IMG/VR virus record: IMGVR_UViG_3300001686_000006
Coordinates: 1 to 55,655 of that record
DNA from: a virus
Length of the DNA stretch: 55,655 nt
Reading direction: 5' to 3' (one strand)
Part shown: positions 28,978 to 42,181 of the stretch, in pieces
Position numbering within the stretch: the first letter of the stretch is position 1
Layout: every line of letters begins with the position of its first letter
Notes under the pieces: generated by a model
What the model was told of the DNA's origin: nothing
The model's input: the letters and a program-made list of their open reading frames with translations, nothing else
Database searches by the model: none
Made by a program: the position numbers and the translations under genes

Positions 28978-29001
28978 CGCGTATATTTCAGGGCGTATAA
29001 T
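28976..29001 (+). promoter_or_regulatory. Phage promoter P4
   Basis: TTCGCG, TATATTTCAGGGCG spacer, TATAAT. Confidence 0.85.
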
Positions 29002-40143: not shown

Positions 40144-40725
40144 TTGCTGAAAAAGACGATTGTCTACGAGAACCCATTCACCCAGCAAATGGTGAGTGAG
40201 GAACATTACTTTCATATCTCCAAGGCTGATCTCATCGAGATGCAGATGGAGAATCTGAATGAGCCCGAGGTAATCAACCCGCAGACCGGGGCCAAGCTCG
40301 AGGGCTACCCGGCCATGCTGCAACGCATCGTCAACGACAAGGACGGCAAGGAGATCCTGGTCGTCGTCAAGGACATGGTGCGCCGAGCCTACGGCAAGAA
40401 ATCTGGAGACCGGTTTCTCCGCAGCCCAGAAATCTGGGAGGAGTTCATCTCCAGCGAAGCCTGGTCTCAGCTATATTTCGAATTATGCACCGACGCCGGT
40501 GCCCAAGCCGATTTCATGAACGGCATATTCCCCAGAGACATGCTGGAAGAAGCTAACAAACTTGCCGCCGCACAGGCGCAAACAAACGGAGACGTGTCTA
40601 CGCCCGAACAGGATGTTCCGGCTGACGTTTCCACACCCAGAGTCCTCACTAATCAAGAAGTGGCTGAGATGGACTCTGATGAACTTAAGTCCGGGCTGGC
40701 CACCGGGCGCTACAAGCTTTCGTAG
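40144..40725 (+). CDS. Tail-assembly-chaperone-like protein, misplaced
   Basis: 193 residues from TTG with AGGAG ten bases upstream; an open extension to 40066 lacks a ribosome site. LKKTIVYENPFTQQMVSEEHYFHISKADLIEMQM, KEILVVVKDMVRRAYGKKSGDRF, WEEFISSEAWSQLYFELCTDA and FMNGIFP resemble a chaperone/assembly family found with tail genes in other phages, from memory. Here it is in the early region, far from tail genes, with a Pro/Thr-rich C-terminus. Either relocated or a related regulator. Confidence 0.5.
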   Translation: MLKKTIVYENPFTQQMVSEEHYFHISKADLIEMQMENLNEPEVINPQTGAKLEGYPAMLQRIVNDKDGKEILVVVKDMVRRAYGKKSGDRFLRSPEIWEEFISSEAWSQLYFELCTDAGAQADFMNGIFPRDMLEEANKLAAAQAQTNGDVSTPEQDVPADVSTPRVLTNQEVAEMDSDELKSGLATGRYKLS

Positions 40726-40908: not shown

Positions 40909-41160
40909 ATGCCAGACGAAGTTTCTACCACCACCACCGAAGCTGTCAAGAAGATGAGCGACGGGACCGTGAAGATCTCGGTCGAGAAATACAACGAGTT
41001 GCTCGAGAAGGCGGCCATCAAGCCTCCGGTGATCAACCGCACCATCGTCCACAAGACAGCCGAAATGCTCACTCAAGAGCATCAGGCGTGGGGAGCCACC
41101 TTCATGGGGGCGGGTGTGGCGCTCTTCGTCATCGGAGCATTCCGCTACAAATTCGCCTAG
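40909..41160 (+). CDS. Membrane-anchored protein
   Basis: 83 residues; GCTAGGAGAGTATATG leader. Thr/Lys-rich soluble N-part, then C-terminal span (TFMGAGVALFVIGAFRY). Unknown; it borders two structured RNAs. Confidence 0.62.
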   Translation: MPDEVSTTTTEAVKKMSDGTVKISVEKYNELLEKAAIKPPVINRTIVHKTAEMLTQEHQAWGATFMGAGVALFVIGAFRYKFA

Positions 41161-41839
41161 ATCTTCTAGAGAGATGAGATTGCAGCAGTGTGGATCCTGG
41201 ACTTTATAACGCCAGCTTTGGGGTTATAAAGGGGTGGGAGCGGTCTAATAAACCGCCGCGACCAGATTGACCCCGCGCACTGCTCTCATATTCTCGAGAG
41301 GGATCAACGCTGTCTACTGGTGAAAAGCAGCATTAAGTTGGCTACAACATCCACTCCGGACGGCCGGTACACGGGTGAGATAGCCAGTAGACAGCACGAT
41401 CCGAATCAAATGCGAGCTCTCTTAGAGCTTATATTAGGAGGCCTATCTGGATCCGCAGTACGTGACCGTCTAACGACAGGCCAGTCGATCCGGAGATGGA
41501 GAAGTCTGATTACGGGGTAGGTCCGCATAGGACTAGAAGTTGGAAGGGGTAGATCAGACATATTAGTACAAGCGTCCTAGCGGACGGGTGAGGTCTCAAC
41601 ACTGGGGGTACTGCGGTGGCGCATACCTTAAACGATCACCTAAGCATACAAGATCTGGAGTATGCTGAAATGGCGCCCAGTGCTCGCTATCGCTAGCACT
41701 CATTTCTCCTAAAGGGTGTGATTTTAACTCAGGGGTACCAGCGGCTAATGCGCTCTGGTATTAAACGACAGCAAATGGCACGGTTTGGCAAGTTTTCTTG
41801 CCGAAATGCCCCACCGTCCGTACGCGCCCCTGACTTAAT
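41161..41839 (+). ncRNA. Large ornate-type structured RNA region (about 670 bases)
   Basis: No convincing coding frame, but dense pairing. A: 41174-41179 plus 41185-41190 with 41278-41289 (5-base bulge). B: 41202-41210 with 41223-41231 (9 bp). C: 41240-41244 with 41252-41256. D: 41309-41320 with 41384-41395 (12 bp perfect). A local hairpin: 41415-41420 with 41424-41429. E: 41522-41533 with 41574-41584 (bulge). F: 41600-41606 with 41676-41682. G: 41643-41649 with 41660-41666. I: 41724-41735 with 41827-41838 (one mismatch). J: 41736-41743 with 41751-41760. K: 41780-41784 with 41813-41817, and 41787-41792 with 41797-41802. Pseudoknot candidate: 41504-41510 with 41553-41559, the latter inside E. 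It may be one ornate RNA or several. P20 starts one base later. Confidence 0.62.
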
Positions 41840-41865
41840 TTCGCGGGAATTTCATTGCCTATAAT
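41840..41865 (+). promoter_or_regulatory. Phage promoter P20
   Basis: TTCGCG, GGAATTTCATTGCC spacer, TATAAT; begins directly after the last pairing of the large RNA. Confidence 0.85.
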
Positions 41866-41899: not shown

Positions 41900-42181
41900 A
41901 TGACCACACCCGAGTTTACCGCTCGCAACGTCGCGAAATTCCTCGCGAAGGCAGTCGTCGCCACCAAGACGGCTCGTCTGACCGCCGATGTCGTGGCTGA
42001 CCACACCAACTACGAGAAGGACGACACCGTCGTCGATCTCGGTAGCCAGGTGGTCGGCTGGTACATCAGCGCGAAGCTCGAGCCCGTCACGGACAAGATC
42101 GTCGACACCACCGCAGACTTCGTCACCGAGCAGCGCAACAAGCGCCAGGCCAGGAGAGACGCCAAGAAGAAGGACCAGTAA
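41900..42181 (+). CDS. 93-residue helical cassette protein
   Basis: AAGGAGTATTTCA upstream. FTARNVAKFLAKAVVATKTARLT, a short segment DLGSQVVGWYISAKLEPVT and a basic end (RNKRQARRDAKKKD). No known family. Own promoter and terminator, like the 28-32 kb cassettes. Confidence 0.7.
   Translation: MTTPEFTARNVAKFLAKAVVATKTARLTADVVADHTNYEKDDTVVDLGSQVVGWYISAKLEPVTDKIVDTTADFVTEQRNKRQARRDAKKKDQ

Follow-up and report, generated by a model that had tools for sequence, protein, structure and literature searches.

The noncoding stretch at positions 41161–41839 of the virus record IMGVR_UViG_3300001686_000006 (hereinafter the window, i.e., the whole 55,655-base stretch of DNA that was analyzed) consists of small structured RNAs arranged in tandem, and the final two, W5 and W6, belong to an RNA family found behind a tail-assembly-chaperone-like gene in phages of Gordonia, Streptomyces and Rhodococcus. 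That such a structured RNA family exists, under selection on the gene strand, we regard as practically certain, with covariation providing the decisive evidence. The RNA of most relatives also holds a word, UAGGGGUCUC, complementary to an element, GAGACCCCUA. This element lies just 3′ of the −10 box in a promoter that recurs along these genomes. The window itself is an actinophage contig. Its genome is siphophage-like, has genes for terminase, maturation protease and tape measure, and codes for proteins related to those of Streptomyces, Gordonia and Arthrobacter phages.

A DNA search of 50,697 phage records gave no match for the region, and the family was reachable only via relatives, which were gathered through their proteins, namely the primase/polymerase, the chaperone-like PF23803 protein and the DUF6353 protein. 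In the closest contigs (L002, L020, L031, L032, L119 and L120), the interval from the chaperone-like gene to the next conserved gene is filled with noncoding sequence, and the initial clear homology was that of window positions 41733–41788 to L020 (86% over 58 nucleotides (nt)), with L031 and L032 next. The members share a common architecture: a closing stem of variable letters (P1), a hairpin (P2) usually made of an outer stem of 4 base pairs (bp) and a short inner guanine–cytosine (GC) stem, the junction UUAAACGACARC, an optional P3, the segment UGYG and the returning strand P1′. The A-A-C-R-A-C-A of the junction is nearly invariant, with two positions fixed in all 30 members and several others in 29, and UGYG precedes P1′ in 24 of the 30.

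The covariation is apparent in the R1 covariance model of seven sequences, where, in alignment A6, 85.8% of the pair cells are standard pairs as compared to 64.5% in shuffles and both sides have changed in 17 of 20 pairs, none of 500 shuffles reaching any of these measures. Alignment A8, which had been fitted to the model, agrees, again with none of 500 shuffles reaching the observed values. When all members were aligned with MAFFT, P1′ and P3 were put in the wrong place; hence, we used anchored subsets and, additionally, an alignment-free test of P1. In this test of 30 members, pairing with the own partner has a mean of −14.4 kcal/mol versus −7.8 kcal/mol for cross partners, a difference reached by none of 5000 permutations (z −14). 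A held-out copy, L119-1, was recovered by R1 with an E-value of 1e-11. A scan with a junction-only word (CCGGATGC-N5-7-UUAAACGACARCCG) found 39 viral stretches, and a second model, R2, sees the full structure in all 20 of those that were tested. All model hits lie on the gene strand and G-U exceeds A-C in the P1 cells (14 to 6); thus, the plus strand was adopted, and a minus-strand RNA was rejected despite the lower folding energy on that side. The two family members in the window are:

41600–41682, plus strand: W5, a divergent family member, recognized by the covariance models and the rank of its P1 partner.
41726–41838, plus strand: W6, a canonical family member, recognized by covariation.

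W6 is in the seed of both R1 and R2, and it is as a seed sequence that it scores 93.4 bits with R1. Its parts are P1 (41728–41735/41827–41834), P2 (41736–41760, with the loop GCUAAUG), the junction UUAAACGACAGC (41761–41772), P3 (about 41780–41817) and UACGCG (41821–41826). W5, which was left out of both models, is detected by R2 with 21.9 bits (E-value 5.8e-4 in 3.3 kb) and by R1 with an E-value of 0.0056 in 1.2 kb; it comprises P1 (41600–41606/41676–41682), P2 (41607–41627), the junction UUAAACGAUCAC (41628–41639), a P3 of AGCAUAC/GUAUGCU and AUGGCG (41670–41675). Among the 30 candidate partners in the P1 test, the own partner ranks first for W5 and second for W6. Both conserve the junction together with the 3′ joining segment (CGCG in W6 and GGCG in W5), and they probably arose by duplication followed by divergence. 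Two or more copies are also seen in L020, L119 and L120, and tandem copies are a habit of the window's clade.

The following features surround the two RNAs in the window:

40147–40725, plus strand: tail-assembly-chaperone-like gene with a TTG start (Pfam PF23803, 1.4e-37; phrog_4282, 2.3e-37).
40909–41160, plus strand: small protein gene, placed by the tblastn map of relatives.
41836–41865, plus strand: promoter TCGC-N15-TATAAT-GAGA of the repeated kind, 3′ of W6.
41900–42181, plus strand: next protein gene, phrog_7539-like, the right boundary of the RNA array in close relatives.

In 1.0 Mb, R1 gives 16 hits with E<1, all on the gene strand and directly 3′ of the chaperone-like gene wherever mapped; one of them is in HotFries, a cultured Streptomyces phage. 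This gene is the conserved upstream neighbor in 29 of 29 loci. Its stop codon lies 4–20 nt from the RNA in 24 of them and 35–121 nt in four others, while the window has a spacing of 1002 nt. The window RNA occupies the same interval between the chaperone-like and the next conserved gene, spaced out by an inserted gene and RNAs. The small gene at 40909–41160, which together with the extra RNAs stands between the chaperone-like gene and W6, has its counterpart on the other side of the chaperone-like gene (i.e., upstream) in L002 and L020; thus, the interval has been rearranged. Further, W6 is followed by a promoter of the repeated kind and is therefore not the 5′ leader of the next gene. A blastn search placed the RNA in 68–69 records of Gordonia, Streptomyces and Rhodococcus phages, in which a feature annotated under the match is mostly absent. 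Neither the window nor any of the phages scanned shows a match for the family in Rfam 15, and Rfam and ARAGORN likewise returned no 6S RNA, riboswitch, transfer RNA (tRNA) or transfer-messenger RNA, except for one ordinary tRNA in L032 only. Carriage by prophages was considered and rejected, the single hit in 84,980 bacterial genomes reading as protein-coding sequence. Separately, two loci without the RNA, L114 (Arthrobacter phage Shiba; 4744–4800) and L006 (2836–2900), nevertheless show the word GGGGTCT or GGGTCTCA 3′ of the chaperone-like gene.

The promoter TCGC-N15-TATAAT is repeated along these genomes almost only on the gene strand (20 versus 0 in the window). In the window, plus-strand sites of the form TCGC-N15-TATAAT-GA precede small genes (e.g., at 28996, 30594, 36371 and 41860), often directly 3′ of the terminator hairpin of the previous gene. 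In most phages, the promoter is followed by GAGACCCCUA and a ribosome-binding site. An unbiased 8-mer scan asked which word of each RNA has its antisense most often in the same genome; in most phages tested, this was (U)AGGGGUC(UC), with 11 sites each in HotFries, Gravy and L031, 9 in Poco6 and 12 in LibertyBell. These sites mostly lie directly after the −10 box, following TCGC-N15-TATAAT, and in HotFries the match of GUAGGGGUCUC to GAGACCCCUAC extends over 11 of 11 positions. The seed word is located in the P2 hairpin of long-form RNAs and just 5′ of P1 in the window's clade where present. L134 has other leaders, with AGGAAACCC in most of the nine, and its RNA reads UGGGUUUCU, so that both sides have changed; the mean complementary run of these leaders is 7.17 with their own RNA as compared to a maximum of 7.0 and a mean of 5.35 with 28 other RNAs, and the L134 RNA in turn favors its own leaders. 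Seed and leader co-vary across 29 phages: the double-centered own-pairing score lies above all 20,000 permutations, and the permutation value is 5e-5 when L134, the window and L020 are left out.

Tentatively, and with a confidence that falls a little short of even, we propose that a small RNA is cut from the end of the chaperone transcript and base-pairs with leaders or promoters of the phage itself. The family RNA would sit at the 3′ end of the chaperone-like transcript, and cleavage in AU-rich (C)AUAUU flanks, often bordering P1, would release a stable RNA of about 85–130 nt. In most members, an exposed hairpin, UAGGGGUCUC, could then pair with GAGACCCCUA just downstream of the −10 box at many promoter copies, whereby one RNA might control a set of phage genes jointly, through leader pairing or promoter-level interference; since the element starts right after TATAAT, the RNA may also act at the level of the promoter. 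In the window phage, where the leaders are divergent and no uniform seed is found, the copies may have other partners or work via the conserved core. In a more ambitious form, which we consider rather unlikely, an ancient RNA gene would be a master regulator whose hairpin pairs with or mimics the element after the −10 box to co-regulate all these transcription units, with seed and leader co-evolving and the array copies of the window's clade having taken different targets.

Several points weigh against the proposed cleavage and pairing. The permutation test of seed and leader is uncorrected for shared ancestry. A uniform seed is absent in the window, L018 and L020. Against the window's own leaders, W5 shows no excess complementarity (z −0.3), while that of W6 (z 4.0) is weak and scattered rather than forming one seed; the seed hypothesis was tested for the window's own RNAs and is unsupported there. 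The window and L020 have degenerate leaders, which, alongside the missing seed, is consistent with a joint loss. If transcripts start 6–8 nt after TATAAT, the messenger RNA (mRNA) would miss part of GAGACCCC. As for the flanks, ATATT is found downstream of P1, no farther than 36 nt away, in only 15 of the 30 members and upstream in 8 of 30, it is also common inside genes, and mycobacterial RNase E favors cleavage before cytidines (PMC10641625). Finally, the expression, processing and size of the RNA are inferred, as is the direction of regulation.

The ATATT word also displays a strand bias of its own, with 120 occurrences on the gene strand versus 31 on the other in the window, 46 versus 1 in L020 and 27 versus 0 in a Gravy segment; CATATTT in the window occurs 13 versus 0 times, and the loci with an ATATT-type bias are the window, L002, L020 and L113. 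Unlike the other biased words, ATATT is not purine-rich, and hence such words may mark RNA processing sites or promoter spacers.

Of the alternatives, the one that survives best, though we think it unlikely, is a cis-acting 3′ element without a trans partner, serving only to shield the chaperone-like mRNA at its 3′ end or to assist its termination. The spacing of 4–20 nt after the stop codon in most loci (24 of 29), the stable closing stem and the new promoter directly after it are in keeping with such an element; however, a stabilizer would need neither the invariant junction UUAAACGACA nor the seed, a terminal U-run directly after P1′ is absent, and the window copies stand about 900–1000 nt off, behind another gene and with extra units.

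It is improbable that the RNA is instead a promoter mimic. In this model, there is no pairing to mRNA; the GGGGUCUC(A) strand resembles the promoter's template strand at the bubble (−7 to about +2), and the RNA would act, in the manner of 6S RNA or an R-loop, on RNA polymerase or on the open promoter. The complementary element does begin immediately after TATAAT, upstream of the usual transcript start, and several members (L031, L032, L119, L120, L036, L043 and Rosa) have one more conserved A, which takes the match to the final T of TATAAT, but the complementarity does not run on into the −10 box. Moreover, while possible promoter mimicry is an idea shared with 6S RNA, the family has neither the 6S fold with its long bubble hairpin nor an Rfam 6S match.

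To the same low degree, we entertain the possibility that the RNA core (the UUAAACGACARC junction and UGYG) serves as a decoy or inhibitor by binding a protein of the host or a component of the ribosome, leaving the seed secondary. Such a role would account for a core that is more conserved than the seed and kept in phages devoid of the latter (the window, L018 and L020), and for copies that multiply in the window's clade, as decoys would, but it names no partner. Within the junction (window 41761–41772) there is a segment, ACGACAGC, which may be complementary to a conserved segment of 16S ribosomal RNA; it varies in some members.

Somewhat less probable again is that a phage regulator uses the GGGGTCTC words as operators in the DNA, inverted inside the RNA gene, like mycobacteriophage stoperators, with the RNA structure having a separate function: many promoters share this word in a single orientation, as operators do, but in long-form members it is fixed inside the P2 hairpin of a covarying structure and has no −10 box after it on the opposite strand. 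Highly improbable, and contradicted for W5–W6, is the proposal of the sequence-only reading that the stretch forms a single large ornate RNA of about 670 nt comparable to GOLLD or ROOL, as, despite the fold of the whole stretch (z −4.4), its long stems and a possible crossing pairing, it has no Rfam match, units of the W6 type stand alone in relatives, a covarying P1 of its own closes each family unit and no pairing between units is conserved.

What stands of that reading is a structured noncoding RNA in a phage, and its alternative of several tandem RNAs, for W5 and W6 are of one family that is a single RNA in most relatives; the comparative evidence splits the stretch into P1-closed units of about 85–130 nt. 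The covariation it had suggested looking for is present in the W5/W6 family, while in an Rfam scan of the stretch no family reached its gathering score and, at E≤10, there were only two chance matches to other families. All the pairings it had drawn in 41161–41839 were recovered in place: the stem 41309–41320/41384–41395 with 12 of 12 bp (−21.2 kcal/mol), the stem 41174–41190/41278–41289 with 6+6 bp and a 5-nt bulge, and the 7-bp pairing 41504–41510/41553–41559, crossed, as a candidate pseudoknot, by the stem 41522–41533/41574–41584 with 5+6 bp and one bulge. The 679 nt are more stable than 20 of 20 dinucleotide shuffles on either strand, the z-score being −4.4 on the plus and −5.5 on the minus strand. 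By sub-segment, 41165–41296 (z −4.6), 41300–41402 (z −4.7) and 41711–41842 (z −3.2) fold clearly better than expected by chance and 41500–41562 is marginal (z −2.2), whereas 41590–41690 (z −1.3) and 41445–41500 (z −0.1) are not better than chance by energy alone. There are three further units:

41174–41289, plus strand: W1, a P1-closed RNA (z −4.6) with a bulged P1 (41174–41192/41276–41289) and an inner hairpin at about 41203–41231, followed by CAUAUU.
41309–41395, plus strand: W2, an RNA closed by the perfect 12-bp stem (z −4.7).
41504–41559, plus strand: W4, a weak candidate hairpin RNA (z −2.2) whose pairing the stem 41522–41533/41574–41584 would cross, followed by CAUAUU.

No homolog of 41161–41590, including W1, W2 and W4, was found among the loci searched. 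Coding explanations also fail. The sole open reading frame of more than 60 amino acids inside the stretch (41320–41520, 66 amino acids) has a flat GC content by codon position (0.51/0.55/0.51 versus 0.59/0.35/0.69 in the neighboring gene), and it was rejected as a gene, given the absence of codon bias and of a homolog among relatives, in agreement with the earlier view that no plausible gene lies here. A readthrough or frameshift element or a hidden gene was likewise rejected, with open runs of at least 105 nt in only 9, 6 and 5 of 30 members in the three frames; the offset in this count was one base off for many loci, which merely relabels the frames. ARAGORN finds no tRNA in the stretch.

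GOLLD (RF01998) and ROOL (RF03087) are, like the present RNAs, structured noncoding phage RNAs outside coding sequence. However, they are single molecules of several hundred nt that form homo-oligomeric complexes (PMC12286853), whereas the units described here are separate, with homologs that are single units of about 60–180 nt, and have another consensus and no covariance-model match. Phage-encoded regulatory small RNAs have been reviewed (PMC12197685), an example being 24B_1 (PMC4426718). The family resembles them in being noncoding, a proposed regulator of phage genes and possibly cut from a longer transcript, but differs in forming a single family, conserved and strongly structured, that is fixed behind one gene and has a seed matching a promoter-linked repeat. 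Highly expressed noncoding transcripts of actinophages are known from Rhodococcus phage WC1 and cluster A mycobacteriophages (PMC10986025), though in other phages and at other positions (genome ends and middle). Thus, both phage small RNAs and actinophage noncoding transcripts are known as kinds, while the family itself is undescribed, no description of it having been found in the open PMC literature.

The RNA intervals of the relatives harbor further elements. A second repeated structured element, consisting of GCUCUACGAAAGACCGGC..GGCGCCAGUAGAG and then another hairpin (GCGAGC..GCUCGC in L002), is found in L002 (4351–4460 and 5385–5480), L020 (5146–5240) and L120 (1692–1770); the L020 and L002 versions are 81% identical over 122 nt, and those of L020 and L120 have no Rfam match. 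A third noncoding element is common to L002 (4874–5019) and L024 (5154–5280), with 70% identity over 146 nt. T-arm-like sequences (GGCGGAGTTCGAATCTCCG.. and GCCAGGTTCGAATCCTGG..) with a matching acceptor-like end occur in L119 (4925–5005) and L031 (4728–4850); they are possibly decayed tRNAs or tRNA-like RNAs, with no ARAGORN tRNA in L031 and no Rfam match in either locus. In L120 (1438–1524), a P1-closed unit, CACACTGGC/GCCAGTGTG, stands behind GGGGTCTCA without the conserved junction and may be a degenerate family copy. In the window itself, the noncoding segment 40726–40875 behind the chaperone-like gene has a long-range stem, GATCGCG/CGCGATC (fold z −2.5).

The odd noncoding stretch of the window is explained as a duplicated RNA array and not as another ornate giant RNA. 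The sequenced Gordonia, Streptomyces and Rhodococcus phages in which a covariation-supported RNA gene has escaped annotation number in the dozens, and several of them grow on laboratory strains. If the pairing works as proposed, the covariation of seed and leader would supply clean compensatory mutants, and a whole block of genes would be timed by one structured RNA rather than by a repressor protein.
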